The notes beneath the pieces are model-generated. The model ran no database searches. It was given only the letters and a program-made list of their open reading frames with translations, and had not been told where the DNA came from. From Comamonas antarctica (GTDB taxonomy: Bacteria > Pseudomonadota > Gammaproteobacteria > Burkholderiales > Burkholderiaceae_C), in the NCBI RefSeq assembly GCF_013363755.1, contig NZ_CP054840.1:2411501-2475500 (forward strand): DNA of 64,000 bases, in the 5' to 3' direction. Below are positions 24,563 to 41,264 of the stretch, piece by piece. Numbering within the stretch: the first letter of the stretch is position 1; each line of letters opens with the position of its first letter. A program made the position numbers and the translations under genes.

Positions 24563-26008
24563 TCAGCCGCGGACTTCTTCCGAAAACACTTCCCAGCGTC
24601 CGCCGCTCTTGCGCCAGTACTGGCGCAGCGGCAGGCTCTTGCCGGCCCTGGCGCTGCCGATCTGCATGTCGACGATGCGGATATCGCCCTGCGCGTCTTT
24701 CCAGGAGTAGACCGACAGCTGCTGCATGCCGATGTCGGCGAAGCGAAAGAACTCGGTGAGCCGGGCCCTGGGGAAACGGTCAGCAGCGGGCGCGCCGACA
24801 TACATCTTGGCGAGCTGCTGCTGGTCGGCGCCCTTCCAGGCCTGCTGCCAGCGGTCGAGCACGCGGCCAAAGCCGTCGTCGGCCTGGCCCTGCACGCGCT
24901 CGCCCGCGCCGGCCCACTGCAGCTTGTCGCGGATCAGCACCGGGGTCTGGCGGTCCAGGGTCTTCATCAGCAGGATCAGGTCGGGATTCGACAGCACGAT
25001 GCACCCGTCGCTCGCCTCGGGAAGCCGCGCGAACTGGTCCGGCGGGGCGCCATGCAGCCAGATGCCGTCGCCCGAACGGTCGACGGCCCGATCCCAGTCA
25101 TTGGGGTAATTGAGGGTCAGCGCGCCCTTGCCATAGAACTCGGGCAGGCGCGGGCCCGGAATCTGCCGGCCGATGAAATACACGCCCTGCGGCGTACGCT
25201 GGTCGCCCTCGGCAGTCTTGCCCATGCCGAACTTGCCGATCGAGACGTAGAAATCGCGGATCAGGCGCAGCTTGCCCTTTTCATGGCCAAACAGATAAAG
25301 ACGCGACTTGCTGGCATCGATCGCCACCGCATGGCGCACCGAGACGTCGAGCTGCTGGAACTCGCGCGGCACGCTGCCGGCCGCGGGCAGCACGCCATAG
25401 GCATGAACGCGGCGCTGAAGCTCTTTTTGCAGCCCATGCGCCTGCTCCTGCCATTCCTGCGCGGGCGCCAGCGCGGCCTGGTCGAGCACGGCATTGCGGG
25501 TCAGCAACTCGGTGACCTCCGCGGCCGGCGCATTGACCCATCCCGTGGCGCGGCCTGTCTTGAAGCGCAGCAGATCGGCATAGACCAACTGGGCCGCGCG
25601 GAAATTCGGCACGTCGGACGTGAGCTCGCCGGCGGCGCGCAGCGCGGCATCGAGTTCCTGGCGCTTGACCAGCTCGATGACGTTCAGCAGGCGCGCTTCG
25701 GCGGTGTTGGGCACGGGCGGTTTTGGCACCGTAGCCGCGGCGGCCGTAGCCGCGGCGGCCGTAGCCGCGGCGGCCGTCGCCGCCACAACAACGCCGGCGC
25801 CGGCGGCGCCCGCCACGGCCGCGGTGCGGGCGTGTTTTGCCATCTTCGGCGTGGCAGCGACGGCGCGCTTGCCCGCCTTGGTCTGCCTGGCTTCGGCGGT
25901 CGACCTTTGCGACGGCGCTTGCGCGTGGACCTGCGGCTGGAATGCCACGCCGCTGGCGATCAGGTACAGCGGCAGCAGCGCGCGGCGGAGCGGCCTTTTA
26001 AACAACAT
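24563..26008 (-). CDS. L,D-transpeptidase (YkuD) with C-terminal NTF2-like domain
   Basis: A 481-residue exported protein. The N-terminal signal sequence ends near residue 29. An Ala/Thr-rich linker (about 65-95) contains a DNA-level 15-bp tandem repeat. A helical region follows, then the YkuD domain (about 226-355) with H319 (IWLHGAPPDQF) and the catalytic cysteine C336 in ASDGCIVLS. YkuD enzymes form 3-3 peptidoglycan cross-links or attach proteins to peptidoglycan. The C-terminal about 110 residues (RVLDRWQQAWKGADQQQLAK onward) look like the Cds6/NTF2-type domain that also ends the upstream TPR protein. Confidence 0.88.
   Translation of the reverse strand: MLFKRPLRRALLPLYLIASGVAFQPQVHAQAPSQRSTAEARQTKAGKRAVAATPKMAKHARTAAVAGAAGAGVVVAATAAAATAAAATAAAATVPKPPVPNTAEARLLNVIELVKRQELDAALRAAGELTSDVPNFRAAQLVYADLLRFKTGRATGWVNAPAAEVTELLTRNAVLDQAALAPAQEWQEQAHGLQKELQRRVHAYGVLPAAGSVPREFQQLDVSVRHAVAIDASKSRLYLFGHEKGKLRLIRDFYVSIGKFGMGKTAEGDQRTPQGVYFIGRQIPGPRLPEFYGKGALTLNYPNDWDRAVDRSGDGIWLHGAPPDQFARLPEASDGCIVLSNPDLILLMKTLDRQTPVLIRDKLQWAGAGERVQGQADDGFGRVLDRWQQAWKGADQQQLAKMYVGAPAADRFPRARLTEFFRFADIGMQQLSVYSWKDAQGDIRIVDMQIGSARAGKSLPLRQYWRKSGGRWEVFSEEVRG
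25731..25775. repeat. Three tandem copies of a 15-bp repeat inside the transpeptidase linker
   Basis: Unit GTAGCCGCGGCGGCC, three perfect copies followed by a degenerate fourth. It encodes the repeated TAAAA segment in the linker. Being in-frame, copy changes alter linker length without breaking the protein. Confidence 0.85.
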
Positions 26009-26069: not shown

Positions 26070-27416
26070 TCAACCCCCGGTGGTTTCACGCACGATGCGC
26101 CAATGCCCGCCCTCGTGGCGCAGCGACAGCGTCTTGCGGGTGGTGGTGTTGAGGCTGCCGGCCACATAGTTCTGGCGGAACTTCGCCGTGGCCTGGTCGC
26201 CATCGACCGCCACCTGGATGTTCTGCAACTTGATGGAGATATCGCTCTTGCCGACGATGCGCACGCGGCGCGCTTCCTTCCATTGGGCCAGGCTCACGCG
26301 GTTGGCCGGCTCGAAACGCTCGCTGTAGGCCGCAAGATAGCGCGGCATGTCCTGTTTCTCCCACGCATCGGCCCAATCCTTGACCGCGGATTCGATTTCG
26401 GCCACGGCCGGCGCTGCTGCGGGCTTTGGTTCGGGCGCGGCCGTGGCGGCTTTTGCCACCGGCGCGGGTGCGGCCACCACGGGTTTGGGCTGCACGCCGG
26501 GCTCGGCCGACCTGGCCGCGGGCGCGGCGGCCACGGGTGCCGGCGCCGGCGCAGGCGCAGCCGGGCTGGGAGCCGGGGCCGCGGGGGCGGAGACCGGAGC
26601 CGGTGCCGGAGTCGCTGCGGGGGCAGGCGGTGGCGCCGCGACGGGCGCAGCCGCCACGGTGACCGGCGCGCTCCTGGCGGCAGGTTTGGCGTCCACGGGC
26701 GGCACGGGTTTGGGTTCGACCGCTACGGGTTTCTTTTCGACCTTGGGCTCGACCTTGGGCTCGGCGGGCTTGGCAGGCGCTGGCGTCGGCGCCGCGGCGG
26801 CAGGCGCGCCCGTGGCGGCCTGCGCGGCCAACACGGTCTTGGCTGCGGCCTGCTGGCTGGGCACGAGCTGCGTGATCAGCGCCAGCTTGGCGGGAATGGC
26901 CTGGCGCGAACCGTCAAGCTGCAAGGCTTTGGTATAGGCCTCGCTGGCCATGCGCGCATACAAGTCGCCCAGATTCTCGTGGGCGGTCGTGTAGCTGGGG
27001 TTGGTGCGGATCGCCTGCTCCAATGCCTCGGCCGCCTTGCGCTCCTGCCCTTGCGCCGCATAGAGCACGGCAAGGTTGTTGTAAGGCTCGGGCATGCCGG
27101 GATGCTCGCGCACCAGTGCCGAAAAGATCTTGACCGCCTGGGCGTTGTCTTTCTGTTCGGTGGCAATCACGCCGCGCAGGAAACGCATTTCCACATCGGA
27201 GGGGTTCTGCTTGAGATAGATGTCGGCCTGCTTTGCCGCCTGGCGCGTATTGCCCTGGTCGAGCAGTTGACTCACTTCATCCACTGCGCGTGCCGCATGC
27301 GCCGGCAGGCCGCCCAGGCTCAAGCCCCAACCGAGAAGCACGGCCAACATGGGCCGGGAAAAGCGCGATGGCGCAGCGCTGCGCTGGCGCGACGAAACTC
27401 CGGAGGCAATCTGCAT
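26070..27416 (-). CDS. Exported TPR protein with Pro/Ala linker and C-terminal NTF2-like domain
   Basis: 448 residues. A signal sequence or anchor lies near residues 22-41. TPR-type helices follow at about 44-165 (NPSDVEMRFLRGVIATEQKD, EPYNNLAVLYAAQGQERKAA, HENLGDLYARMASEAYTKAL). Then comes a very long Pro/Ala/Lys linker (about 190-335). The C-terminal about 110 residues (VKDWADAWEKQDMPRYLAAY, HEGGHWRIVRE) form an NTF2-like domain similar in placement to that of the downstream L,D-transpeptidase. The gap between the two genes is 61 bp, so they are probably co-transcribed and act together at the cell wall (inference). Confidence 0.8.
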   Translation of the reverse strand: MQIASGVSSRQRSAAPSRFSRPMLAVLLGWGLSLGGLPAHAARAVDEVSQLLDQGNTRQAAKQADIYLKQNPSDVEMRFLRGVIATEQKDNAQAVKIFSALVREHPGMPEPYNNLAVLYAAQGQERKAAEALEQAIRTNPSYTTAHENLGDLYARMASEAYTKALQLDGSRQAIPAKLALITQLVPSQQAAAKTVLAAQAATGAPAAAAPTPAPAKPAEPKVEPKVEKKPVAVEPKPVPPVDAKPAARSAPVTVAAAPVAAPPPAPAATPAPAPVSAPAAPAPSPAAPAPAPAPVAAAPAARSAEPGVQPKPVVAAPAPVAKAATAAPEPKPAAAPAVAEIESAVKDWADAWEKQDMPRYLAAYSERFEPANRVSLAQWKEARRVRIVGKSDISIKLQNIQVAVDGDQATAKFRQNYVAGSLNTTTRKTLSLRHEGGHWRIVRETTGG

Positions 27417-27670
27417 ATGGCGCTTTTCTCTCTATGCGATGGATGGGAGGGGAAGTGACACAGGGCTGGCACACCGGCCCTCTCGTTGCCCGGCCGGGAA
27501 CGGATGGGAGCGCGCAGCAAAACCTCTGGATTGTATATCGGCCTCGGCGCGCACGTGCCCGACCAGGGCCCGGGCGCCCGCCCCGCAGTCGACAGCCCGC
27601 GCGGTTGCCGTATCCGCGCGCACGCGCTGCGGCAAGGACGTCGAAAAACGATACGGAACAAACGGCACAC

Positions 27671-27692
27671 GTTACGGAACATGGGCCGTAAC
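27671..27692. promoter_or_regulatory. Candidate upstream activator site for the sigma-54 promoter
   Basis: A perfect inverted repeat GTTACGG-N8-CCGTAAC, centred about 140 bp upstream of the -24/-12 element. That spacing suits an enhancer-binding protein. A partial copy (TACGGAACA) lies 21 bp upstream. The protein that binds it is not known. Confidence 0.5.
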
Positions 27693-27818
27693 ACCTGGCG
27701 CACAGGGTGGTCCGCACGCTCGCCGGCATCCCGGGAATCCGTGACGAAAACCAAAAATCCCCAATGAATTCAACGCATTGCAGAACCTCGCTGCGTTTTC
27801 TCAAGCGCTTGCCGGCAC

Positions 27819-27833
27819 TGGCACACATATTGC
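27819..27833 (+). promoter_or_regulatory. Sigma-54 (RpoN) -24/-12 promoter
   Basis: TGGCACACATATTGC: the -24 element TGGCAC and -12 element TTGC have the exact GG-N10-GC spacing. Expected transcription start is near 27845, about 65 nt before the start codon of the repeat protein. A sigma-54 activator gene lies at 51730 and ihfA at 6663. Confidence 0.8.
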
Positions 27834-27911
27834 GGAAAGAGGTCCAGACAAGCGTTGCGGAGCGTCCGCCGCGCTTCACCGATGTAACGATCAACCTACT
27901 GGAAAGAGCAT

Positions 27912-30900
27912 ATGACGACCTCTGCATCCCAACCCTCCAGCACCGTCATCGCACAGCTGAATGTTGCCCAGCCGCAGACCTTCAGCGCGCCTTCCGCCGC
28001 CGCCGCGCCCACGCCGGTGACGACAGGTCCTGCCGTGCTTTCCCAGGCATCGCCCGGCGTGCAGATCGTGCGCGACGGCCAGACGATGGCCGCGCAGCCA
28101 GGCAGCCGGCTGCAACTCGGCGACACTGTGCGTGTGCCCGCAGATGGCAGCGCGCAGGCGCTGTTCTCCGGCAGCGGCGGCCAGCAGTTGGTCGGCACCT
28201 TTTCCGGCGGCACCGAAGCCACGCTGAACTTCCGCGGCACCGAGGAGGGCACGGGCGTGATGTCGCTGGACCTGGCATCGGGCGACGTCGACGTCTCACC
28301 CGTCAGCGCCTCCGACGCCGTGGGCCTGGTCGTGACCAAGGAATCCACCGAGGCCGGCGGCTCGGTGCTGGGCGACTTCCTGCTCGCAGGCCTGGCCGGC
28401 CTGGGCGCAGGCGCGCTGATCGCATCGAACAACAACGATGACGATGAGAACCCGGTCCCTGTGCAGCCGACCAATCCAACCGACACGACCAATCCAACGG
28501 ATACCACTAACCCAACGGACACAACCAACCCGACGGATACAACCAATCCGACGGACACCACCAATCCGACGGATACGACCAACCCAACGGATACGACCAA
28601 TCCGACGGACACCACCAACCCAACGGACACCACCAACCCAACGGACACCACCAACCCGACGGATACGACCAATCCAACGGACACCACCAACCCGACGGAT
28701 ACCACCAACCCAACGGACACCACCAACCCGACGGATACCACCAATCCGACGGATACGACCAACCCAACGGATACCACCAATCCAACGGATACGACCAATC
28801 CAACAGATACCACCAACCCGACGGATACGACCAATCCAACGGATACCACCAATCCAACGGACACGACCAACCCGACGGATACCACCAATCCAACGGACCC
28901 GACCAACCCGACGGATACCACCAATCCAACGGATACGACCAATCCAACGGATACCACCAATCCGACGGACACCACCAATCCGACGGACACCACCAATCCG
29001 ACGGACACCACCAATCCAACGGATACCACCAACCCGACGGACACCACCAACCCGACGGACACGACCAATCCAACGGATACCACCAACCCGACGGATACCA
29101 CCAACCCGACGGATACCACCAATCCGACGGATACGACCAACCCGACGGACACCACCAATCCAACGGATACGACCAATCCAACGGATACGACCAATCCAAC
29201 GGATACGACCAATCCAACGGATACAACCAATCCAACGGATACGACCAACCCGACGGATACCACCGATCCAACGGATACCACCAACCCGACGGATACCACC
29301 GATCCAACGGATACCACCAACCCGACGGATACAACCGATCCGACCAACCCCACCGATGGCACGGACGGCGGTCCCGGCCTGGTCACCACCGTGCAGGATG
29401 TGGTCGACAACCTGTTGACGGGCACCGTGGCGGCACCGGTCGTTGACCTGATCAATTCGCTGGTGGCGCCCGAAGGCAGCACCCTGAGCACGGTCACCAG
29501 CCTGCTGGAGGAGCTGACCAATACCGAGGGCGGGCTGGGCGCATTGACGCAACTGGCCAACGGCCTGGCGAATACCGACAACCAGGGCCTGACGCCGCTG
29601 GTGTCCACGCTCAATGGCCTGGTGTCCGGCCTGGCCGACCCTTCGGGCGGTGGCGGTGTGCAGAACGTGGTCAACAACGTGGTCGGCGGACTGTTGGGCA
29701 GCGGCGGGCTGGGCGGTTTGCTGGGTGGCCTGCTCACGGGCGGCAGCGGCGGCGGAACGGGCGGCACGGACGGCGCCGGCGTGGTCACTGCGACGCAAAA
29801 TGTGGTCGACAACCTCGCGGACGGCACCGTGGCGGCGCCTGTGGCCGAACTGATCAATGCGCTGACGCATCCCGATGACGGCACGCTGTCGGCCGTGACC
29901 AATGCGCTGGAAAGCCTCACCGGTGCCGAAGGCGGCCCGCTGGGCGTGCTGACCGAGCTGGTCAATGAACTGGCCACGATTCCGGGTGAAAACCTCGAGC
30001 CGCTGATCGACACGCTCAACGGCCTGGTCGGCGAGCTCGCCAGCGCGGGCAACGGTGCGGGCGCACTGCAGGAGGCGGTGGAAAACCTGCTGGGCGAGAA
30101 CGGCGCGCTGGGCGGCCTGCTCGCCGATGGCGGCCCTCTCGCGGGCGTGGGCAGCCTGCTGGGCAATCTGTCCGGCGGCCTTGGTGGAGGTACCGGCGGC
30201 GAAGGCCCGGGCCTGGTCACCGCGGCGCAGGATGTGGTCGACAACCTGCTCGGCGGCACCGTGGCCGCTCCCGTGGCCGACCTGCTCAACGCCTTGACCC
30301 ATCCCGATGAGGGCACGCTCGCGGATGTCACCAACGCGCTCGAAGGCTTGACCAGCGCCGAAGGCGGCCCGCTGGGCGTGGTCACCGAACTGGTCAATGG
30401 ACTCACAAACATTCCCGGCGAAGGGCTCGAGCCCCTGGTCGACACGCTCAATGGCCTGGTCGCGGGCCTGGGCGACGCGGGTGGCGGCGCCGCTTCGCTG
30501 CAGGAGGTCGTGCAAAACCTGCTGGGCGAGAACGGCGCGCTGGGCGGCCTGCTCGCCGATGGCGGCCCTCTCGCGGGCGTGGGCAGCCTGCTGGGCAATC
30601 TGTCCGGTGGCCTCGGTGGCGGCACCGGCGGCGAAGGCCCGGGCCTGGTCACCGCGGCGCAGGATGTGGTCGACAACCTGCTCGGCGGCACCGTGGCCGC
30701 ACCCGTGGCCGACCTGCTCAACGCCTTGACCCATCCCGATGACGGCACGCTCGCGGATGTCACCAATGCGCTGGAAGACCTGACGGGCGCGGAAGGCGGC
30801 CCCCTGGGCGTGGTCACCGAGCTGGTCAATGGGCTCACAAACATTCCCGGCGAAGGGCTCGAGCCCCTGGTCGACACGCTCAATGGCCTGGTCGCGGGCC

Positions 30901-31994
30901 TGGGCGACGCCGACGGCAGCGCCGGCTCGCTGCAAGACGTGGTGCAGAACCTGCTGGGCGACAACGGCGCGCTGGGCGGTTTGCTGGCTGATGGCGGCCC
31001 GCTCGCGGGCGTCGGCGATCTGCTGGGCAATCTGTCCGGCGGCCTCGGTGGCGGCACCGGCGGCGAAGGCCCGGGCCTGATCACCTCGGCGCAGGATGTG
31101 GTCGACAACCTGCTGGGCGGCACCGTGGCCGCTCCCGTGACCAGCCTGCTTGACGCGCTGGTCTCGCCCGACGACGGCACGCTGTCCCAGGTGACCGGTG
31201 CGCTCGAGGACCTCACGGGCGCCGACGGCGGCCCGCTGAATGTGCTGACCGAGCTGGTGGACGGCTTGACGCAGGTCCCGGGCGAAGGCCTGGAGCCGGT
31301 CATCGGCGTGCTCAACGACCTGATCACCGGCATCTCGGACAACGGCACGTTGGGCGGCCTGGACGGCGTGATCCAGCAGGTGCTGGGCGACAACGGCCTG
31401 CTCGGCGGACTGCTGGGCGGTGAAGCCGGCCCGCTGTCCGGCCTGACCGGCGATCAGGGTCTGCTGGGCGGCGTGCTGGGCAATGAAGGCGGCTTGCTGG
31501 CCGGCGTCACCGGCGAGGAAGGCGTGCTGAACAGCCTGCTGGGCAGCGAGGGCGGCCTGCTGTCCGGTGTGACCGGCAACGAGGGCGTGCTGGGCGGCTT
31601 GCTGGGCGGCGAAGGCGGCTTGCTGTCGGGCGTGACCGGCGATCAAGGCTTGCTGGGCGGCCTGCTCGGCAACGAGGGCGGCTTGCTGTCGGGCGTGACC
31701 GGCGATCAGGGCTTGCTGGGCAGCCTGGGTACGGAAGGCGGCGTGCTGTCCGCAGTCACGGGCCCGCAGGGCCTGGTCGGCGGCTTGTTGGGCCAGACCA
31801 CCGGCGGCCTGCTGGGCGGCGGCAGCGGCGGCCTGCTCGGAGGCCTGCTCGGCCAGAGCAGCGTGCAGGCGACGGTCAGCGTCGCGCCGGCAGAGCAAGA
31901 CGCGATTGCAGTGTCCATCAGCAGTCAGGCGGATGCGGGCAGCGACGCCGCCTCCATCCTGACCCAGCCGCTGCAGCACAACCTGCTGGCTTGA
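27912..31994 (+). CDS. Giant repetitive surface protein (NPTDTT repeats, Gly/Leu repeats), putative type I secretion substrate
   Basis: 1360 residues with no Sec signal peptide. Residues about 45-140 resemble the retention-type N-terminal module of LapA/BapA adhesins (QIVRDGQTMAAQPGSRLQLG, then DTVRVPADGSAQALFSGSGG). A Gly/Ala/Leu stretch (about 150-175) and a short acidic NNNDDDE run follow. Then come 48 hexapeptides NPTDTT (about 188-475), five homologous repeats of 134-144 residues (from about 487) and five 21-residue repeats (GDQGLLGGLLGNEGGLLSGV type). The C-terminus has no RTX GGxGxD motifs. ATG 27912 follows a GGAAAGAG-type RBS and a sigma-54 promoter. Adjacent OmpA lipoprotein and T1SS genes suggest surface display; adhesin or matrix function is inference. 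Confidence 0.85.
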   Translation: MTTSASQPSSTVIAQLNVAQPQTFSAPSAAAAPTPVTTGPAVLSQASPGVQIVRDGQTMAAQPGSRLQLGDTVRVPADGSAQALFSGSGGQQLVGTFSGGTEATLNFRGTEEGTGVMSLDLASGDVDVSPVSASDAVGLVVTKESTEAGGSVLGDFLLAGLAGLGAGALIASNNNDDDENPVPVQPTNPTDTTNPTDTTNPTDTTNPTDTTNPTDTTNPTDTTNPTDTTNPTDTTNPTDTTNPTDTTNPTDTTNPTDTTNPTDTTNPTDTTNPTDTTNPTDTTNPTDTTNPTDTTNPTDTTNPTDTTNPTDTTNPTDTTNPTDTTNPTDPTNPTDTTNPTDTTNPTDTTNPTDTTNPTDTTNPTDTTNPTDTTNPTDTTNPTDTTNPTDTTNPTDTTNPTDTTNPTDTTNPTDTTNPTDTTNPTDTTNPTDTTNPTDTTNPTDTTNPTDTTDPTDTTNPTDTTDPTDTTNPTDTTDPTNPTDGTDGGPGLVTTVQDVVDNLLTGTVAAPVVDLINSLVAPEGSTLSTVTSLLEELTNTEGGLGALTQLANGLANTDNQGLTPLVSTLNGLVSGLADPSGGGGVQNVVNNVVGGLLGSGGLGGLLGGLLTGGSGGGTGGTDGAGVVTATQNVVDNLADGTVAAPVAELINALTHPDDGTLSAVTNALESLTGAEGGPLGVLTELVNELATIPGENLEPLIDTLNGLVGELASAGNGAGALQEAVENLLGENGALGGLLADGGPLAGVGSLLGNLSGGLGGGTGGEGPGLVTAAQDVVDNLLGGTVAAPVADLLNALTHPDEGTLADVTNALEGLTSAEGGPLGVVTELVNGLTNIPGEGLEPLVDTLNGLVAGLGDAGGGAASLQEVVQNLLGENGALGGLLADGGPLAGVGSLLGNLSGGLGGGTGGEGPGLVTAAQDVVDNLLGGTVAAPVADLLNALTHPDDGTLADVTNALEDLTGAEGGPLGVVTELVNGLTNIPGEGLEPLVDTLNGLVAGLGDADGSAGSLQDVVQNLLGDNGALGGLLADGGPLAGVGDLLGNLSGGLGGGTGGEGPGLITSAQDVVDNLLGGTVAAPVTSLLDALVSPDDGTLSQVTGALEDLTGADGGPLNVLTELVDGLTQVPGEGLEPVIGVLNDLITGISDNGTLGGLDGVIQQVLGDNGLLGGLLGGEAGPLSGLTGDQGLLGGVLGNEGGLLAGVTGEEGVLNSLLGSEGGLLSGVTGNEGVLGGLLGGEGGLLSGVTGDQGLLGGLLGNEGGLLSGVTGDQGLLGSLGTEGGVLSAVTGPQGLVGGLLGQTTGGLLGGGSGGLLGGLLGQSSVQATVSVAPAEQDAIAVSISSQADAGSDAASILTQPLQHNLLA
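28473..29336 (+). repeat. 48 tandem 18-bp units encoding NPTDTT
   Basis: 864 bp divide exactly into 48 in-frame units, followed by a degenerate DPTNPTDGTDGG end. Codons vary freely (AAT/AAC, CCA/CCG, GAT/GAC, ACA/ACC/ACG) while residues barely do: unit 24 is NPTDPT and units 45 and 47 begin with Asp. The alternation N-D-N-D at the 3' end implies duplication of a 36-bp pair. Confidence 0.95.
29370..31448 (+). repeat. Five ~134-144-residue tandem repeats in the surface protein
   Basis: Units begin at 29370, 29772, 30204, 30636 and 31068 (402 bp, then 432 bp apart), each opening with G(P/A)G(L/V)(V/I)T..Q(D/N)VVDN and containing GTVAAPV. The third and fourth units are nearly identical at DNA level. 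The fifth runs into the 21-residue repeats. Confidence 0.9.
31449..31760 (+). repeat. Five 21-residue (63-bp) Gly/Leu repeats in the surface protein
   Basis: Units of the form G(D/E/N)(Q/E)G(L/V)LGG(L/V)LG.EGGLL(S/A)GVT, the last one residue shorter. Similar Gly-rich segments are sometimes labelled collagen-like, but they lack a strict Gly-X-Y period. Confidence 0.85.
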
Positions 31995-32076
31995 TGATCG
32001 ACCGCGGCCGCAAAGCCGCGACAACGCCCCTGCCACTGCGCCTGCGAGGCCGCGGCAGGGGCATGCAAGGAGTCCC

Positions 32077-32610
32077 ATGAAGCACCACCATATCCACACC
32101 ACGCTGCTGCTGGCCTGTTTCCTCGCCGCCTGCAGTTCCACCCCCGGCTCCAGTTCGCAACGCAGCGAGCAGCACTACGCATTCGGCAAACCGCCCGCGC
32201 CAATGCCTGCGCCCATCAGCGACAACGCGCGCGTCGCGCCCGTGGTGGCGCAGCCGCAGCAAGGCCGCAAGGGACCGGAGAACGTGGCGCATATCGTCTA
32301 TTTCGATTTCGATTCCTACGCCGTGAAGGCATCGGATCGCGCCATCCTCGAAAGCCATGCGCGCTGGCTGCGCGACCATCCGCAGCGCTCGCTGGTGCTG
32401 CAGGGCCACACCGACTCCCGCGGCGGCATCGAATACAACCTGGCGCTGGGCCACAAGCGCGCCCAGGCCGTGCGCTCCGACCTGCAGCTGCTGGGCGTGC
32501 CCCAGGAGCGCATGGAGGCAGTGAGCTATGGCAAGGAACAGCTGGCCGATCCCGGCACGAGCGAATCCGCGCACCAGCGCAACCGCCGCGTGGAATTCGA
32601 ATACCGCTGA
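32077..32610 (+). CDS. OmpA-family peptidoglycan-binding lipoprotein (Pal-like)
   Basis: 177 residues. The lipoprotein signal has lipobox LAAC near residue 19. An unstructured linker follows, then a C-terminal OmpA domain (about 70-177): AHIVYFDFDSYAVKASDRAI, LVLQGHTDSRGGIEYNLALG and KRAQAVRSDLQLLG, including the Asp and Arg used to bind diaminopimelate. AAGGAG precedes ATG 32077. It lies 82 bp after the repeat protein gene behind a 9-bp hairpin (32026-32034 with 32054-32062), so it is probably co-transcribed and could help hold the surface protein or its exporter at the cell wall. Confidence 0.9.
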   Translation: MKHHHIHTTLLLACFLAACSSTPGSSSQRSEQHYAFGKPPAPMPAPISDNARVAPVVAQPQQGRKGPENVAHIVYFDFDSYAVKASDRAILESHARWLRDHPQRSLVLQGHTDSRGGIEYNLALGHKRAQAVRSDLQLLGVPQERMEAVSYGKEQLADPGTSESAHQRNRRVEFEYR

Positions 32611-32651: not shown

Positions 32652-33626
32652 TTGATCCGCAAGAGCCCCCACCCCCCTGCCGGACCCGCCCTGCAGTCGC
32701 AGGAGCCCCGGATCACCCTCTCCCAGCAGCTCAGCGCCAGCCTGCGCCACCTGAAGCAGCGCATCACGCTGCTGCCCGAGCCCTATGCCTGCTGCATGCT
32801 GTTTTTCACGGTGGCCGCGCAAGGCTCGCCGGACAGCGTGTTTTTCGTGCGCCGCACCACGCTCGAAGCGGCGTGGCGCGAGGGCTCGACGCGCGTGCGC
32901 CAGTGGGCCTGGATGCGGCAGCTTGCCGCGGTCGAGTTGCGCATCGACTGGCCCGATGAGATCCTGGTGATCGGCAACCGCCTTCCCGGGCTTCTTCCAT
33001 GGGGCGCGGCTTCCGCGTGGGCGCTGGCGGATGACGACCTCGAACACGCCGAATTCCTGCCGCCGACGGCACTGCCCGGCGCCAGCCACGCCGCCACGGG
33101 CGGGCAAGGCGGGACCGACGCCTGCGCGCCGCCGCTGCGCGGTCTGGCCGAGGTGAATCTGCTGCTGCGGCTACAAGGCCTGCATGTGGACCGCAATGGG
33201 TTGCAGACCCCGCTGCCGACCGCGCCGGCGCCGCAGCGCGCCCCCGCGTCGTCCCCACCGCGCCCGCCGGCACCCTTGCATCTGCAGCCCGATCAGCACC
33301 GGCACGGCGCGGGCTGTGACCGGCGCTGCGTGCCCGAGGCATTGCTGCTTGCCCAGCGGCAGGCCGCCAACCCGGCTCTGGCACTTGCAGAAATGCTCGA
33401 GGCCATCGAACGCGCGCTGGCGTGCCTTGAGCAGCATATGCATGGCCGGCAAGGCCCCCCCGACCCAGCCGATGTCGAGCAGGCAATGGGCTTGCTGGTA
33501 TTCACGCGCCATATCGCCGGACGGAATGCGGATGTTCCGCTGGCCGCACTGCTCAGCAGGATGGAGCGCCTGACCACGCATCTGGCGGTATACGCCAAAG
33601 GCGAGATTTCCGGCACGCGGACATAA
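32652..33626 (+). CDS. Uncharacterised protein between the OmpA lipoprotein and the secretion operon
   Basis: 324 residues from TTG 32652 (AGGGA upstream). I do not recognise the family. No signal peptide. Residues about 20-130 form a folded-looking region (LSASLRHLKQRITLLPEPYA, DSVFFVRRTTLEAAWREGST). The middle (about 185-225) is Pro/Ala-rich, and the C-terminal 100 residues are helical (EMLEAIERALACLEQHMHGR, RNADVPLAALLSRMERLTTH). Composition matches the host genome. Position suggests a role with the surface protein or T1SS, but nothing in the sequence proves it. Confidence 0.6.
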   Translation: MIRKSPHPPAGPALQSQEPRITLSQQLSASLRHLKQRITLLPEPYACCMLFFTVAAQGSPDSVFFVRRTTLEAAWREGSTRVRQWAWMRQLAAVELRIDWPDEILVIGNRLPGLLPWGAASAWALADDDLEHAEFLPPTALPGASHAATGGQGGTDACAPPLRGLAEVNLLLRLQGLHVDRNGLQTPLPTAPAPQRAPASSPPRPPAPLHLQPDQHRHGAGCDRRCVPEALLLAQRQAANPALALAEMLEAIERALACLEQHMHGRQGPPDPADVEQAMGLLVFTRHIAGRNADVPLAALLSRMERLTTHLAVYAKGEISGTRT

Positions 33627-34236: not shown

Positions 34237-34468
34237 TTTTTAAACCTAAAAACCCAGTCGAGATAAGGTTTGAAAAACAACTAATTACTGAATTACACTA
34301 ATCCGAACATTGATTAACGTCAGGAAATCCTCGTTGATTTACAAATCAAGAAACGAGCAATTAACAAAAGCTATCGAAATTTATATTTAATAGTATTCAC
34401 AGGTATTGCAGCCATTTTTCCATGGCGACATAACGCCCGCCCTCCATTTCCCGAGACAGACAGCCGAC

Positions 34469-36295
34469 ATGCTCCAATACCTGCTACCTCGCCAGTTACT
34501 GAATGCCGTCGAGCAAGACGCGCAATCCGGCGCGGCCGCAGGATATGGCGCGGCCATCCGCGAATCATTCGACCGCGCTTCGGTTCATTTGCGCCGCGCA
34601 GCATGGCTTTCACTGCCGATCAGCCTGCTGGGACTGCTGCCCTCGATTTTCATCTTGCAGGTCTATAACCGGGTGATTGCACGCGGCGGGCTGGCCACGC
34701 TCACGGCCATGGTGGCCGGCGTGCTGTGTTTTCTCGGACTGGAGCTCTGGCTGCGCCGGCGGCGCGCGCTCGCGCTCAGAGAAGCCGGTGCCACCATCGA
34801 CCGCGAAGTCTCGCAGTCGCTGATGAACTGCATGCTGCGCCATCCGCTGCTGACGCTCGAGGGGCGCCCGTCGAGCCAATGGCTGCAGCTGTTCCGCGAT
34901 ATCGGCGCCATGCGCTCCTGCGTCTCCGGCGGGCTGGCCGCTTCGGTCCTCGATCTGCCCATGGCCCTGCTGGCGCTGGTGGTCATCGGCATCATTGCCT
35001 GGCCGGTGCTGCCGGTGATCCTGGTGGCCATGCTGATCCTGGGCGTGCTGGCCTGGTGGTGGGCCGACGAGGTGCGCAGTGCGCGCGTCGAGGAAATCGA
35101 GCAGGCACGCCAGCTGGACCGGGGCACGGCCGAGATCTGCAATGCGCGCTCGACGCTCAAGGTGCTGGGATACGACGCGGCGGCCAAGCAGTCATGGCAG
35201 GCCGGCTACGACCGCTGGCTGGGCGAGAGCTTCCGCAAGAACGGCGAGATGGAGAATGCGCGCGAGACCAGCCATGTGCTGCTGACCTTTTTTTCCGTGG
35301 CCGTTATCACCGTCGGCGCGATCGCCATCAATGCGCAGTGGATGAGCATCGGCAGCCTGATGGCCGTCAATCTGCTGTCCGGCAAGGCGCTCGGACCCAT
35401 CGCCCAGCTGGCCAGCAACTGGCGCTCGCTGGCGCGCGCCAACGAGTCGACGGCACGCCTGCAGGCGGTGCTGCGCGAGCCGCTCGAACCCGCGGCGCAA
35501 AGCGTCGAGCCGCCCCGCCCGCGCGGCGGCTTCCGGCTCGACAACGTCAGCTTCCACTACCCTTCGGGCCATGTCGCGCTGGACCAGGTCTCGCTGCAGA
35601 TCGGCCCGGGCGGCATCCATGCCATCCTGGGGCGCAACGGCGCCGGCAAGTCGACGCTGGCCAAGCTGCTCGCCGGGCTCTACCAGCCCACGCAGGGCAG
35701 CCTGTTCATCGATGAATACGACATGGCGCAGTTCTCGCGCGCCGACCTGGGACGCTGGGTCGGCTGCCTGCCGCAGCAGTCCTACTGGTTCGGCGGACCG
35801 ATCATCGACACGCTGCGCATGGTCAGCCCCGAGGCCGACAGCCACCGCATCTTCATCGCCTGCCGGCTTTCGGGCGCGCACGACTTCATCAGCCGCCTGC
35901 CCAACGGCTACCAGACGGTGCTGGGCGAAGGCGGCGCGGGGCTGTCGGCGGGCGAGCTGCGCAAGCTGGGCCTCGCCCAGCTGTACCTGCGCAATCCGTC
36001 CGTGCTGATTCTCGACGAGCCCAGCAACGACCTCGATTTCGAGAGCGAGACCGCGCTGCTGCATACGCTCAGGCAGATCTCGCTCAAGCACACCATCGTG
36101 GTCGTGACGCATTCGCTGCGCGTGGCCTCGCTGGCCCAGCATGTCTACCACGTGCGCGGCGACGGCCATGTCGACCACGGCACGCCCGACCAGATGCTGC
36201 CCGCGCTGTTTGGCGTGGCGCGTGCCGGCGCGGCCCCGGCCGCGGGCGCCGCGCCGGACGTCGCACCTTCCGAAACCGCGCCGGTGATGGTGTGA
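34469..36295 (+). CDS. Type I secretion ABC transporter (permease-ATPase)
   Basis: 608 residues. The N-terminal membrane domain (about 45-330) has about six hydrophobic segments, for example LSLPISLLGLLPSIFILQVY and VLPVILVAMLILGVLAWWWA. The C-terminal nucleotide-binding domain has Walker A GRNGAGKS (near 388), Walker B VLILDEPS with its Glu (near 511) and the switch His (VVTHSL). The signature is LSAGE instead of LSGGQ. No C39 peptidase domain, so the substrate is not cut at a double glycine. ATG 34469 is chosen over TTG 34406; its RBS is weak. First gene of ABC-HlyD-TolC; the repeat protein upstream is the likely cargo. Confidence 0.88.
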   Translation: MLQYLLPRQLLNAVEQDAQSGAAAGYGAAIRESFDRASVHLRRAAWLSLPISLLGLLPSIFILQVYNRVIARGGLATLTAMVAGVLCFLGLELWLRRRRALALREAGATIDREVSQSLMNCMLRHPLLTLEGRPSSQWLQLFRDIGAMRSCVSGGLAASVLDLPMALLALVVIGIIAWPVLPVILVAMLILGVLAWWWADEVRSARVEEIEQARQLDRGTAEICNARSTLKVLGYDAAAKQSWQAGYDRWLGESFRKNGEMENARETSHVLLTFFSVAVITVGAIAINAQWMSIGSLMAVNLLSGKALGPIAQLASNWRSLARANESTARLQAVLREPLEPAAQSVEPPRPRGGFRLDNVSFHYPSGHVALDQVSLQIGPGGIHAILGRNGAGKSTLAKLLAGLYQPTQGSLFIDEYDMAQFSRADLGRWVGCLPQQSYWFGGPIIDTLRMVSPEADSHRIFIACRLSGAHDFISRLPNGYQTVLGEGGAGLSAGELRKLGLAQLYLRNPSVLILDEPSNDLDFESETALLHTLRQISLKHTIVVVTHSLRVASLAQHVYHVRGDGHVDHGTPDQMLPALFGVARAGAAPAAGAAPDVAPSETAPVMV

Positions 36296-36297
36296 CC

Positions 36298-37653
36298 ATG
36301 GGCAAGCTGCACCAAGACCTTCCCGAAGTGCTGCGCAATGCGCAGGCGGATGCCGCGCCCGCGGAAAGCGCGGCCGAGGGCACGCCCTTCAGCAAGGGGC
36401 CGTCGCTGCTCACGCGGCAGCGGTTGATCACGGGCGCGCTGGCCGGGCTGGTGCTGGTCGGGCTGTTCTATCCCGTGGAGAACGTGGTCGTGGCCAGCGG
36501 CCAGGTGATTCCGTCCGACCGCGTGCAGAGCGTGCAGCATCTTGAAGGCGGCATCGTCACCGCCGTGCATGTCAAGGAAGGCCAGTCCGTGGGCAAGGGC
36601 CAGCCGATTCTCGAGATCGACCTGGGCGGAAGCAGCCTCAACCTCGAGCAGCTGACCGCGCGCAGCGCAACAGCCCAGGCCGTGAGGACGCGCCTGGCGG
36701 CCGAAAGCCAGGGCCGGCAGCTCGATGCCGCGCAATTCCCCAAGGAAGTCGATGCGCGCATCGTGCGCTCCGAGCTGGGTGCGTTCAGCGCGCGCGCGCT
36801 GGAGCACCGCGGCAGCCTGGCATCGTCCGAGGCGCTGCTGGCGCAGGCGCGCGGCGATGTGGCGCAGACCCAGGCGCGCATCAAGGGGCTTGAAACCAGC
36901 CTGCGCCTGTATGAACAGGAAGCCGCCATAGCCAACCAGCTGGCGGCCGAGCAGCTGATCGGCCAGCTCGAAGTCATCGACAAGCAGCGCGCGCTGGAGG
37001 CGGTGCGTACCGACCTGTCCGCGGCGCGCCAGAACCTGGTGAGCGGCCAGGCCAAGGTGGACCAGGCCCAGGCCAAGCTGATGGAGACGCAGGGCGCGTT
37101 CCGCCGGCGCGCCTCCGAGGAACTGGCGCAGACCGAGCGCGAGCTGATGAGCCTGTCGGAGGATGTGGCGCGCGCGCAGAGCCAGCGTGGCCGCACCGTC
37201 GTGCTGGCGCCCACCGATGGCATCGTCAAGGGCTTGCGCAGCTCGGGTGCGGGCTGGGTGGTCAAACCGGGCGAGCCGATTCTCGAGATCGTGCCGGACA
37301 AGGACGAGATCGTGGTCGAGGCGCGGCTCAACCCCTCGGACCGCGGCTACGTGCATGTCGGCCAGGCCACCAAGGCCAAGATCACCGCCTACGACTACCT
37401 GCGCTATGGCTTCGTGCAGGGCCAGGTGCGGCTGGTGTCGGCCGATGCCGACCATGATCCGAACCGGCCCGAAGCGCCCTCCTACTTCCGCATCCAGGCC
37501 AGCCTGCAGCAGCCCTGGGTGGGCCGCACCGACAACCGCATCACCACCGGCATGCAGGCCGAACTGGACCTGCTGGTCGGTCATGAACCCTTCATCTGGT
37601 ACCTGCTGCGGCCCGTGCTGCACATCCAGAGCCAAGCCTTCCGGGAGCCATGA
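36298..37653 (+). CDS. HlyD-family periplasmic adaptor of the type I secretion system
   Basis: 451 residues with one N-terminal transmembrane helix (LITGALAGLVLVGLFYPVEN). A split lipoyl-like domain shows QHLEGGIVTAVHVKEGQSVG and APTDGIVKGL. A long coiled coil (about 125-300) lies between, and the C-terminal beta-barrel has DRGYVHVGQATKAKI. It links the ABC exporter to TolC. ATG 36298 follows the ABC stop by 2 bp; its 3' end overlaps the TolC gene as ATGA. Confidence 0.92.
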   Translation: MGKLHQDLPEVLRNAQADAAPAESAAEGTPFSKGPSLLTRQRLITGALAGLVLVGLFYPVENVVVASGQVIPSDRVQSVQHLEGGIVTAVHVKEGQSVGKGQPILEIDLGGSSLNLEQLTARSATAQAVRTRLAAESQGRQLDAAQFPKEVDARIVRSELGAFSARALEHRGSLASSEALLAQARGDVAQTQARIKGLETSLRLYEQEAAIANQLAAEQLIGQLEVIDKQRALEAVRTDLSAARQNLVSGQAKVDQAQAKLMETQGAFRRRASEELAQTERELMSLSEDVARAQSQRGRTVVLAPTDGIVKGLRSSGAGWVVKPGEPILEIVPDKDEIVVEARLNPSDRGYVHVGQATKAKITAYDYLRYGFVQGQVRLVSADADHDPNRPEAPSYFRIQASLQQPWVGRTDNRITTGMQAELDLLVGHEPFIWYLLRPVLHIQSQAFREP

Positions 37654-39224
37654 TGCGCACGGCCGGCCTGCTCACCCGCACCCACCGCCGCGCGTTGCGC
37701 GCCGCCGGACTGCTGGGCTCGATGCTGGCCCTGGCGCTGCCGGCCGGCGCGCAGCCGGCGCAGCCGCCCGCGCTGCAGCTGTCGCCGCAGCTCGCACCCG
37801 GCTCGCTGGCCACGAACCAGTCGCAAAGGCAGCTGCTGGGCGCGCTGTACGAGATGCTCAATGCGCATCCGGACGTGCTCAAGGCGCGTTCCGCGCTCGA
37901 GTCCGCGGGCCATGACGTGAGTTCGGCCAAGGGCGCGCGCTGGCCCAGCTTCAAGGTCGGCACCTCCTCGGGCACGGCCTCGATTGGCCAGGGCCAGCGG
38001 CGCGAGTCGTACACCGCGATCACCGCCGAAGTGCGCATGAACCTGCTCGATGGCGGCGCGATCGGCGCCGGCATCCGATCCGCAGAGGAAATGGAGGCCG
38101 CCCAGGACAGCGTGCTCTACAGCACGCGCCAGAACGTGTTGCTCGAAGCCCTCACGGCCCTGCTGGAGCTGCACCGGTTCGAGCTCAAGGCTCAGGTCGC
38201 GGCCGAATCGGCGGCGACCATCGGCCAGCTCGCGCATGTCGAGCAGCGCCGCGCCGAACTGGGCGCCGTGGGCCGCAACGACCTGCGCCGCGCGGCCTCG
38301 CGCCAGGCCAGCGCGCTGGCCGAGCAGCAAGGGCTGCAGTCGCAGCGCCTGGACGCGCTGGCGCGCTTCACGCGCTATTTCAACTACGCGCCCACGGGCA
38401 GCGCCCTGCCCGACCTGCAGGTGCCGGCGCAATGGCTGCCGGCCAGCGAGCAGGCCGCGCTGCAAGCCGCGGAGAACCACAGCTCCGAGCTGCGCGAGTC
38501 GCGCCACATGATCGAGCGCGCGACCGCCGAGGTCAACCGCAGCAAGGCGCAGCGCTTTCCCACGCTGGCCGGCGTGGTGGCGCAGACGCACGACCCCAAG
38601 GGAGTGCTCTACAACGAGGGCACGCGCTACGGCGTCGAGCTCAACTGGAATTTCGGCAATGGCTTCGAACTGCGCGACCGCATCCTCAAGGCGATCAACG
38701 AATTGCAGGCCCAGGAGGCGCAGCAGGAAGCCGTGCGCCGCCAGGTGCAGGAAACCGCCTCGGCCGCCTGGGGCCGCTGGCAGGCCGGACGCGAGCGCGA
38801 GGCCCAGCTCACGGATGCGGTGCGCGAAGCGCGCACCGCGTTTGAAGGCTACCGCCGGCTGCTTGAAGTCGGCCGCGGCAGCCTGTCCCAGGTGCTGGAC
38901 TCGCAGCTCGAGATGCAGCGCCTGATGCTCGAGGAGGCCGATGCGCGCTACGACCAGCGCATCAACGGCCTGCGGCTGATCCGCACCACCGGCCAGCTGC
39001 TGCCGCCGCAACTGCCCAATCAATGGCTAGACCGGCTGTTCGACCAGCCGCCGGCCGAACGCCCCGCATTTGCCACCGCCCGCGCTCCGATGCCGGGCGC
39101 CGCGCCCGACACCACTCCCACTGCGCCGGCCCAGCCCTTGCAGTTGCGGCTTGAAACCCGACTCGATCCGGCGCTCGCAACGGCGCCGCAGAACCCGACA
39201 ACCCACCACGCCTTGCGATGGTGA
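37650..39224 (+). CDS. TolC-family outer-membrane channel of the type I secretion system
   Basis: 524 residues. A signal peptide (cleavage near AGAQPA) is followed by two long alpha-helical repeats typical of TolC: LYEMLNAHPDVLKARSALES, RMNLLDGGAIGAGIRSAEEM, then LNWNFGNGFELRDRILKAIN and FEGYRRLLEVGRGSLSQVLD. The C-terminal about 60 residues form a Pro/Ala-rich tail. It completes the ABC-HlyD-TolC exporter, with translational coupling to HlyD. Confidence 0.93.
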   Translation: MMRTAGLLTRTHRRALRAAGLLGSMLALALPAGAQPAQPPALQLSPQLAPGSLATNQSQRQLLGALYEMLNAHPDVLKARSALESAGHDVSSAKGARWPSFKVGTSSGTASIGQGQRRESYTAITAEVRMNLLDGGAIGAGIRSAEEMEAAQDSVLYSTRQNVLLEALTALLELHRFELKAQVAAESAATIGQLAHVEQRRAELGAVGRNDLRRAASRQASALAEQQGLQSQRLDALARFTRYFNYAPTGSALPDLQVPAQWLPASEQAALQAAENHSSELRESRHMIERATAEVNRSKAQRFPTLAGVVAQTHDPKGVLYNEGTRYGVELNWNFGNGFELRDRILKAINELQAQEAQQEAVRRQVQETASAAWGRWQAGREREAQLTDAVREARTAFEGYRRLLEVGRGSLSQVLDSQLEMQRLMLEEADARYDQRINGLRLIRTTGQLLPPQLPNQWLDRLFDQPPAERPAFATARAPMPGAAPDTTPTAPAQPLQLRLETRLDPALATAPQNPTTHHALRW

Positions 39225-39314: not shown

Positions 39315-39506
39315 ATGACCAAACTCATCCAACGCTTCTGGAATGACGAAGAAGGTGCAACGGCTATCGAATACGGACTGATTGCGGGTTTGATTGCCGT
39401 GGCAATCCTCGGGACGGTGAGCACATTGGGTGGTCAACTCAACGTCATTTTCCAGAAGATCTCCACCATCCTTACGGGCGCCGGCACTCCAACGCCCTCG
39501 AACTAA
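39315..39506 (+). CDS. flp: Flp-type major pilin
   Basis: 63 residues. A short leader MTKLIQRFWNDEEG is followed by the Flp motif ATAIEYGLIAGLIAVAILG, with the Gly at -1 and the Glu-Tyr pair at +5/+6 after cleavage. It is processed by the neighbouring TadV peptidase and polymerised by TadA-TadB-TadC into adhesive pili. The start at ATG 39315 replaces the longer TTG 39300 frame. First gene of the tad locus, 90 bp after the TolC gene. Confidence 0.93.
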   Translation: MTKLIQRFWNDEEGATAIEYGLIAGLIAVAILGTVSTLGGQLNVIFQKISTILTGAGTPTPSN

Positions 39507-39534
39507 GTCTGAAGCCCGCAAGGCAGTCCTGCTG

Positions 39535-40098
39535 ATGCCGTGGTCGAACTTTCTGGTCCCCCTGTGCCTGCTCTGGCTCATTGCCATAGTGGTCATGGAC
39601 CTGCGTATCCGCAAGGTACGCAACTGGATGGTGCTGCTGGGGCTGGGCATGGGCGCCATCGCGCTGGCTGCGGGCATCCAGCCCTTCCAGGTCCCGGCCT
39701 GGAAGGCGCTGCTGGGCATGCTGGTGGCGTTTTCCGCCTTGCTGCCCTTCTACGCATTGCGCTGGATGGGCGCGGGCGACGTGAAGTTTGCCGCCGTCAT
39801 CGGGCTGTGGCTGGGGCTGTCGCCCGCGCTGCTGGGCATCTGGCTGGGCGGCAGCCTGCTGGCCGGCGTGCATGGCGTGCTGGTGCTGGCCTGGCGCCGC
39901 GCGCAGGCCTCGGCCAGCGCCCAATGGCTGCAGGCCCGCCTGCCGCTGCGCATGGTGGCGCTGGTGACGCCGCCCGACACGCCGCCCGTGGCGGCCGACG
40001 GCCAGCGTGTGATCGTGCGCAGCATCCCCTATGCCGGCTATATGGCGCTGGCCGCCATCTGGCTGTTGTTCGTGGACCGGTCCGTGTTGGCCGCCTAG
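39535..40098 (+). CDS. tadV: TadV/CpaA prepilin peptidase
   Basis: A 187-residue A24 aspartic peptidase of the inner membrane, with about five to six hydrophobic segments and both catalytic Asp motifs: VVMDLRIRKVRNW and RWMGAGDVKFAAV. It lacks the N-terminal methylase domain of PilD, as is usual for Tad systems. It cleaves the Flp leader and probably TadE/TadF. ATG 39535 is the start; 28 bp after flp. Confidence 0.92.
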   Translation: MPWSNFLVPLCLLWLIAIVVMDLRIRKVRNWMVLLGLGMGAIALAAGIQPFQVPAWKALLGMLVAFSALLPFYALRWMGAGDVKFAAVIGLWLGLSPALLGIWLGGSLLAGVHGVLVLAWRRAQASASAQWLQARLPLRMVALVTPPDTPPVAADGQRVIVRSIPYAGYMALAAIWLLFVDRSVLAA

Positions 40099-40216
40099 AA
40101 AGGAACGTCATGAAGCCATCCTCCGCACCAGGTAGTTTTGCCTTCGAGGCCGGCTTGCCGCGCGCCAGCACCGAAAGCAAAGCTTCCCTGTCTTGCGCAG
40201 CCAGGAGATCCACGCC

Positions 40217-41236
40217 ATGAATCTCACCAAGATCCTTGCCGGCCTGCTGCTGGCCCTGGCCCTGCTGCTGGCCATTGGCGCCTGGATGCTGGGCCGCCCG
40301 TCCAGCGCCCCGGCAAGCACCGCTCCCGCGGCAGCGCCCGTGGCACCGGCGCAGCAGCACGATGTCGTGGTCGCCGCGAAGGCCATTGCCGCAGGCCAGC
40401 GCCTCGTCGCCGAAGACCTCAAGGTGGTGCGGATGCCCGCGGCGGTGCCGCATGGCTTCGGCAACCCGGCCGCGCTGCTGGGCCGCACCACGGGCACCCA
40501 CATCCACGCCGATGCGCCGCTGTTCGAGCAGCAATTGCTCAACGGCCTGGCGCTGCAGCTTGAAAGCGGCCAGCGCGCGGTGTCGGTGGCTGTCAAGGAA
40601 GCGATGGCCGCGGGCCATCATGTGCGTCCTGGCGATTTCGTCGATGTCTTCTTCACCCTGGATGGCAAATCCGACCAGGCCCAGGTCGATACGCAGACCC
40701 GGCTGCTGCTCGCGCGCAGCCGCGTGCTGGCCTATGGCGCGGCCAGTGTCGAGAACCCGCCGCCCACGGCAGCCCAGCGCCAGGAACAGGAACAGCAGGA
40801 CAACAGCACCGGGGTGCGCCGCGCGAGCGCGCGCGAGAATGCCGGCGGCCGGCCCGACAATGCGAATACCGCGGTGCTGGCGGTGGCACTTGACGACGTG
40901 CAGCGGCTGACGCTGGCTGAACGATACGGCCAGCTGACGCTGGCGCTGCGCCATCCGGATGATCTCAGCATGCCTGACCCGGCGCTGTTCGCGGCGCTGC
41001 CCACGGCGCTGCAACCGGTCGCAGGCCGGCCGGCCAAGGGGCAGGAGCTCGGAGCTTCCGACCGCGCCTATGCCGGCCTGCGCTTCAAGGACCTGGCGGC
41101 GGGCGCGCCCGCGAAAAGCCCGCCGCGCCCGCCCGCCGCGCTGCAGGCCGCGGCCGCGCCGCGCACGCCCGCGCCACCGCGCCCGCAGACCGTCGAGGTG
41201 TACCAGGGAGGCACGGTCCAGACCGTGGCCTACTGA
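40217..41236 (+). CDS. cpaB: CpaB/RcpC Flp pilus assembly protein
   Basis: 339 residues. An N-terminal transmembrane helix (ILAGLLLALALLLAIGAWML) precedes a SAF domain (VVVAAKAIAAGQRLVAEDLK) and the RcpC/CpaB core (AVSVAVKEAMAAGHHVRPGD, FVDVFFTLDG). The C-terminal part is Pro/Ala-rich. It likely stabilises the secretin. AGGAG lies 9 nt before ATG 40217. Confidence 0.9.
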   Translation: MNLTKILAGLLLALALLLAIGAWMLGRPSSAPASTAPAAAPVAPAQQHDVVVAAKAIAAGQRLVAEDLKVVRMPAAVPHGFGNPAALLGRTTGTHIHADAPLFEQQLLNGLALQLESGQRAVSVAVKEAMAAGHHVRPGDFVDVFFTLDGKSDQAQVDTQTRLLLARSRVLAYGAASVENPPPTAAQRQEQEQQDNSTGVRRASARENAGGRPDNANTAVLAVALDDVQRLTLAERYGQLTLALRHPDDLSMPDPALFAALPTALQPVAGRPAKGQELGASDRAYAGLRFKDLAAGAPAKSPPRPPAALQAAAAPRTPAPPRPQTVEVYQGGTVQTVAY

Positions 41237-41264
41237 CGGCGCGCCGGCAACACAGGTAGAGACC

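Follow-up and report, generated by a model that had tools for sequence, protein, structure and literature searches.

The 64,000-nt window of Comamonas antarctica analysed here (contig NZ_CP054840.1; positions below are those of the window) holds a gene for a 1360-aa protein at 27912–31994 on the + strand. The protein consists of an N-terminal module, a Gly-rich hydrophobic segment, a stalk of hexapeptides, five long repeats, a Gly/Leu array and a conserved C-terminus (Table 1). We consider it likely that this is a stalked surface protein, exported by a type I secretion system (T1SS) and retained in the outer membrane, and that it serves most likely as an adhesin or a cell–cell aggregation factor. 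Surface display and adhesion are what we infer from the sequence. We regard the protein as a variant of the retention-module T1SS adhesins that is new in form.

Export and retention

Genes for an ABC transporter, a HlyD-type adaptor and a TolC-type channel adjoin the adhesin gene and co-occur with it, which makes the protein a probable T1SS substrate. Co-inheritance was tested on the exporter's ABC gene. Among 36 same-genus genomes, 12 have both adhesin and exporter, 1 has the adhesin only, none has the exporter only and 23 have neither (Fisher p 1.0e-8, which overstates the case because related genomes are treated as independent). The thresholds were E 2.5e-29 or better for a full-type N-terminal module (13 genomes) and E 1e-100 or better for the ABC gene (12 genomes); G009 and G032 match at E 1e-13 to 1e-15 through short proteins made of a single module and were counted as adhesin-less. 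In the sole adhesin-only genome (G025), with a completeness of 59%, the adhesin gene reaches the contig end. Among the 24 same-order genomes, G039 carries a relative of the exporter (44%) on one contig and a short relative of the N-module on another.

Gene order was kept in 9/9 same-genus stretches spanning the cluster, two of which lack one small gene (the 32652-type gene in G019, the OmpA gene in G008). In G010 ~2 kb separate the TPR gene that flanks the cluster from the conserved gene that comes next downstream, and no adhesin, OmpA or exporter match was found in the 16-kb stretch; the cluster set may therefore come and go as a block, and this empty site suggests that adhesin, OmpA gene and exporter are gained or lost together. 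The downstream secretin-like gene was found in 9 of 13 adhesin-less genomes and stands beside the TPR gene in G010 only; no empty site was seen in the remaining 12 of these 13 same-genus genomes. The exporter ABC gene of one relative (L065, G002) is split across two frames.

The C-terminal 45 residues, a candidate T1SS signal, are kept in close relatives (alignment A3, 10 proteins). Their profile also matched G247 and G139, which are not in A3, at E 0.024 and 2.9e-6 in a small set of open reading frames (ORFs), and did not match the distant family members.

When the AlphaFold2 model of the N-terminal module was searched against the PDB by fold, the top match, well ahead of the others, was 5ix9, which carries the PDB names 'Antifreeze protein' and 'Cell surface anchoring domain'. 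We take 5ix9 to be region I of MpAFP/MpIBP, the ice-binding RTX adhesin that Marinomonas primoryensis exports by a T1SS. LapA-type retention modules (alignment A6) match the same structure by sequence (E 2.6e-9), and for these two reasons we assign the module a predicted retention-module-like fold. Direct profile comparison of the N-module with retention modules gave a weak match (E 3.5e-4, probability 37.5%), and the model also matches two phage FecR models by fold. The fold search listed no solved retention module besides 5ix9; this does not count against others. By sequence, the N-module found no PDB entry below E 0.9, and none of the 7993 candidates in a protein-database search reached E 0.001; the database seems to lack its relatives, since ~60% identical ones exist in whole genomes. 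With a relative's N-module, the protein-database search yielded 14 proteins, which went into the alignment. The N-module of Acidovorax sp. CCYZU-2555 (L056) is 72% identical.

Behind the beta domain, aa 151–172 have the highest 19-residue hydropathy mean (1.89) among windows starting in aa 1–489. In alignment A1 the conserved positions are A148, G149, G150, L153, D155, L157, A159, L161, G163 and G165, followed by D176 and D177. The N-module also occurs alone, in short proteins (~120–195 aa) of some congeners (L070, L071, L072, L075). A match inside an ABC-F-like protein of G052 (L074) was taken as chance.

The first-pass annotation, a reading of the sequence alone, had described a T1SS-adhesin architecture with a retention-like N-terminal module and neither a Sec signal nor RTX motifs, and this description held up. 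The exporter is adjacent and co-inherited, the N-module matches 5ix9 by fold, and no Sec-like signal was detected in the 1360-aa protein (best hydropathy mean 0.66 for 19-residue windows starting before residue 30). The RTX nonapeptide GGxGxDxUx, searched as the pattern GGxGxD-x-hydrophobic, had 0 matches.

Because retention is read from the fold, and because the LapA-type retention hidden Markov model gives no match, we considered a product that leaves by the same T1SS without being retained and, once secreted, acts as biofilm matrix or as a polymer coat. We judge this unlikely, since the fold of the N-module matches an adhesin anchoring domain and the module is strongly conserved together with the hydrophobic segment.

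A second alternative is a LapA-type switched adhesin, held by its module and freed by the genome's LapG when cyclic di-GMP drops. LapA, with its retention_LapA module (NF033682) and the LapG and LapD proteins, resembles the present system in its adjoining T1SS genes, retention-like N-module and long repetitive chain. The genome does have a LapG match, the N-module shares the fold, and in one same-genus relative (L064) an AAAG stands in a fitting place, at residue 154 in the stretch that joins the beta domain to the hydrophobic segment. Three LapA-type tests (model, cleavage site, linked LapG) nevertheless failed, and the protein was therefore set apart from the LapA type. NF033682 did not match this protein, and its only match in the genome is another gene. 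The LapG site [TAP]AAG has 0 occurrences in the 1360 residues and was found in the first 220 residues of only two of 12 same-genus relatives (L064 at 154, L077 at 29), whereas AAG is present in 11/11 aligned retention modules (11 of the 16 above the cut-off). The only LapG match lies ~121 kb from the adhesin gene and near another adhesin: an open frame of 5374 aa, ~16 kb from LapG, whose retention module is truly LapA-type and carries TAAG (G000:C1:2564198-2581016, L055, L078). We therefore give LapG switching very little credence; as the protein has no LapG site, the LapG of this genome probably does not switch its retention.

MpAFP/MpIBP differs in other respects: the present protein has neither an AAG site nor an RTX pattern, and its hexapeptide array takes the place of Ig-like repeats. 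The abstract of PMC4083281 describes the MpAFP stalk as Ca-dependent Ig-like repeats.

A reading in which the Gly-rich segment acts as a transmembrane anchor, with the neighbouring T1SS serving another protein, is just as improbable. The hydropathy of aa 151–172 would suit an anchor, as would five family members, all of one genus, without a nearby T1SS. Exporter co-occurrence is near-perfect, however, gene order is kept, and no other candidate substrate was noticed among the genes scanned near the exporter, where no systematic search was made.

For the reading we prefer, a T1SS-exported and outer-membrane-retained protein, we propose the following sequence of events. The ABC transporter would recognise the conserved C-terminus, which would be the first part of the chain to exit. 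The N-terminal beta domain would fold in the periplasm and, being then unable to pass the TolC-type channel, would plug it; the hydrophobic segment and the adjoining start of the stalk would lie inside the channel or behind it. With a length of up to about 90 nm if fully extended at 3.1 angstrom per residue, the stalk would lift the repeat head beyond the lipopolysaccharide or capsule layer, where long repeats and Gly/Leu array could act as the head for adhesion or self-association. The OmpA/Pal-like lipoprotein may tether the assembly to peptidoglycan. In this scheme we base export on the neighbouring genes and their co-occurrence, retention on the fold and the remaining steps on inference.

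The hexapeptide stalk and the repeats

The ORF is a real gene. It begins with ATG, directly downstream of GGAAAGAG as read from the sequence, and runs uninterrupted for 1360 codons; the product has 0 Cys, 0 Trp and 0.4% Lys+Arg. The stalk of 294 residues comprises 45 exact NPTDTT units, 2 DPTDTT, 1 NPTDPT and 1 DPTNPT, and its 18-nt array scores 1135 in Tandem Repeats Finder (TRF), more than chance. The 49 units are written in 22 distinct 18-mers. Against the consensus they show 92 base differences, 84 synonymous and 8 non-synonymous, whereas random placement of 92 differences predicts ~68 non-synonymous (minimum 50 in 2000 trials). Pairwise comparison gave a mean dN of 0.010, a mean dS of 0.84 and a dN/dS of about 0.012 (956 pairs of the first 48 units, leaving out identical pairs and those without dS). 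The + frame therefore codes, and selection acts on the NPTDTT hexapeptide as protein. Collagen-like Gly-X-Y triplets are absent from the stalk, as its four unit types hold no Gly.

That the repeats are a low-complexity artefact or a functionless expansion is scarcely credible: long antisense frames do cover them and simple repeats expand easily, but the synonymous excess already contradicts this, and the ends and repeats are conserved in relatives. The antisense frames, 27896-31393 (-) and 28296-32141 (-), span 1165 and 1281 aa. We rejected them as genes and read them as by-products of GC-rich repeats, because variation falls almost entirely on third positions of the + frame. No RNA family was found in 27300–28000 at E up to 1. 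Promoter-like sites numbered 2 against 1.1 ± 1.0 in shuffles, and terminator-like sites 4 against 7.7 ± 2.6. Searches of the open-licence PMC literature listed no paper whose title or abstract describes this protein.

The 432-nt array of long repeats scores 2074 in TRF, also more than chance. The 96-aa cores of long repeats 3 and 4 are 94% identical, and mean column identity is 69% over the 22 units of the family alignment. The repeats are probably helical: the predicted structure consists of helices throughout, at low confidence (mean pLDDT 43.6). Family scans gave no convincing curated family for the repeats or for any other module. DUF7553 (PF24430), the sole Pfam match in the whole-protein scan, reached 39–42 bits (cut-off 27) by a score summed over the repeats and matched 3/22 single units (best E 0.0052). 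Weak matches to pAdhesive_17 (PF20609) occurred in 4/22 units (best E 0.0037), and this family was not listed at E up to 1 for the protein's own C-terminal part; Collagen_mid matched 1/22 (E 0.011). The DUF7553, CheW and Baculo_PEP_C matches were taken as repeat or composition effects. A PDB search with the repeat profile returned PPR/alpha-solenoid proteins down to E 1.7e-13, which we likewise read as a repeat effect because in each of 6 rows 0 stretches pass alone; the matches fit a helical repeat and prove no kinship. Comparison of repeat types A and B by hhalign gave E 0.0021 at a probability of 13.5%.

Outside its close relatives the long repeat is rare, with matches in 4 of 398 phylum genomes, including the genome analysed here and one congener. 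The Zavarzinia proteins P0001 and P0003, and likewise the proteins P0002 and P0004, carry 4–5 copies of the same repeat family at 38–40% identity. By our reading of the sequences, P0001, P0002 and P0004 have an N-terminal part that resembles a barrel and bears a Sec-like signal, then long repeats, and no stalk. Proteins of this Zavarzinia type comprise P0001–P0004 and L144–L146; genome G386 matches the long repeat 12 times.

Several counts of the first-pass annotation needed revision. Its hexapeptide array is real, with 49 units of which 45 are exact in place of 48 NPTDTT, and is thus 294 rather than 288 residues long (aa 188–481). Five repeats of ~140 residues were confirmed at the starts and lengths in Table 1; their helical look agrees with the predicted model, at the low confidence given above. 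The 21-aa Gly/Leu period stands, at 6.4 copies rather than five. Its statement that the repeats match no adhesin repeat family it knew agrees with the scans, which gave no convincing curated family. An undescribed class, as proposed there, goes too far: the predicted fold of the N-module is that of a known adhesin's anchoring domain, and the protein is thus not wholly outside known kinds. The annotation would have withdrawn its claim if every module matched a characterised family; the N-module does so by predicted fold, and the repeats have no convincing curated match.

Features and neighbouring genes

Table 1. Features of the adhesin gene and its surroundings, in window coordinates.
Feature	Position (nt)	Residues	Strand	Evidence
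L,D-transpeptidase-type (YkuD) protein, next gene outward	24563–26008		-	Pfam
TPR/Cds6_C protein, divergent neighbour, kept in relatives and at empty site	26070–27416		-	Pfam
N-terminal beta domain, predicted retention-module-like fold	28029–28316	~40–135	+	AlphaFold2 model, fold search
Gly-rich hydrophobic segment, then Asn/Asp-rich aa 173–180	28362–28427	151–172	+	Hydropathy, alignment A1
Stalk of 49 hexapeptides (45 exact NPTDTT)	28473–29354	188–481	+	Repeat finding, unit count, codon analysis
Long repeat 1, 134 aa	29376–29777	from 489	+	Repeat alignment
Long repeat 2, 144 aa	29778–30209	from 623	+	Repeat alignment
Long repeat 3, 144 aa	30210–30641	from 767	+	Repeat alignment; helices predicted, low confidence
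Long repeat 4, 144 aa	30642–31073	from 911	+	Repeat alignment
Long repeat 5, core, continues into Gly/Leu array	31074–31394	from 1055	+	Repeat alignment
Gly/Leu array, 63-nt (21-aa) period, 6.4 copies	31395–31793		+	Tandem-repeat finding
C-terminal 45 residues, candidate T1SS signal	31857–31991		+	Alignment A3, 10 proteins
OmpA/Pal-like lipoprotein, probably peptidoglycan-binding	32077–32610		+	PF00691 3.2e-21; Pal_lipo 121 bits (cut-off 125)
Protein with front domain only	32652–33626		+	No Pfam or NCBIfam match; 40%/294 aa to N-part of G023 gene
T1SS ABC transporter	34406–36295		+	TIGR03375 358 bits, PrtD 307 bits (both under own cut-offs); PF00005, PF00664
HlyD-type T1SS adaptor	36292–37653		+	TIGR01843 310 bits (cut-off 209)
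TolC-type outer membrane channel	37650–39224		+	PF02321 2.6e-47; TIGR01844 126 bits (under cut-off 225)

The OmpA-type gene next to the adhesin gene recalls AtaA/TpgA, which we take to be a trimeric autotransporter paired with an OmpA-like partner. The present system differs in using a T1SS, not type V secretion, and in lacking a YadA-type anchor: no YadA-type anchor or head domain was matched by Pfam in this protein, YadA-like proteins are weaker homologue matches covering 9–24% of the query, and the TpgA model gave the OmpA-type gene only 32.6 bits (cut-off 350). The YkuD gene is present in the fetched stretch of 6/12 same-genus relatives; other stretches may end before it. On the 3' side of the exporter lies a Tad-pilus-like locus (39430-42680, +) with a prepilin peptidase by Pfam and with genes that are presumably CpaB and CpaC; its position is kept in relatives.

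Stalk variation among relatives

A wider genus search found the N-module at E 1e-40 or better in 22/53 genomes (own included) and short relatives only in 2 more. Across 299 family genomes it matched in 22, in 15 of 141 genera, several of these matches being weak. Six-frame scans of fetched stretches gave 29 N-module members from 27 genomes, own included. This set leaves aside G307, where the match lies in a LysM/FecR-like protein; stretches were not fetched for the weak matches in G122, G124, G129 and G233, further paralogues of multi-copy genomes and the additional same-genus genomes of the wider search.

Across the 29 members the position of the stalk is constant and its chemistry varies: 17 stalks are PT-based (including NPTDTT, NPT, PTDPTDG and GPT), 8 consist of acidic dipeptides (AD, SD), 3 are proline-rich and 1 is TSTNTG. 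An ABC relative of at least 48% identity lies in the same stretch in 20/29. In the others, either the contig ends first (4) or none is present (5, all of one genus); for G036 and G026 the exporter was located on a different contig. The OmpA-like gene accompanies 19 of the 20 ABC-bearing members; it was not found for G008 and is on the opposite strand in G141. The genus without a T1SS in the stretch (L133, L138 and L143, from G305, G228 and G114) has 2.8–3.3 Mb genomes, each with 3–8 matches to the N-module, in open frames ~200–720 aa long; its fetched members have proline-rich, PT or TSTNTG stalks.

In layout these proteins can be compared with the MSCRAMMs: the likeness is a low-complexity stalk, made of SD repeats in relatives G082 and G182, and the difference is Gram-negative T1SS export without an LPXTG anchor. 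For SD-repeat surface proteins such as SdrG, a passage of PMC7616799 describes a low-complexity stalk that holds the head off the cell.

In 9/22 loci (L061:8827-11982; L131, L135, L065, L076, L134, L139-L141) a MurF-like ligase forms the end of the gene that lies between OmpA and ABC, with a further weak case in G207. The domain scored 84 bits with TIGR01143 (cut-off 289) and 30.1 bits with Mur_ligase_C (cut-off 28.4). The copy at 32652–33626 consists of the front domain alone, without the ligase. No paper joining Mur ligase, T1SS and adhesin was found in the open-licence PMC literature.

Tentatively, and at well below even confidence, we propose a class of T1SS fibres, encountered so far mostly in one Burkholderiales family. 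In most members its hook, a retention-module fold, would not be coupled to LapG, and its stalk chemistry would be exchanged between lineages (NPTDTT, NPT, PTDPTDG, GPT, SD, AD, proline-rich, TSTNTG). Hook, exporter and OmpA/Pal-like partner would stay constant, and in some members a MurF-like ligase from the same cluster would have the fibre or its peptidoglycan anchor as its target.

Some relatives' gene neighbourhoods hint, unexpectedly, that a Mur-ligase-like enzyme may be connected with an adhesin exporter, and one repeat family is common to T1SS-linked proteins and to Zavarzinia proteins with a Sec-like signal. Here a retention-module-like fold seems to lack coupling to the LapG switch, and the same genome holds the switched type as well. 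If the proposal is true, the adhesin stalk would be an exchangeable slot in which related anchors and exporters carry chemically unrelated low-complexity stalks, and the family would offer a natural series on what a stalk requires in length, stiffness, charge and protease resistance.
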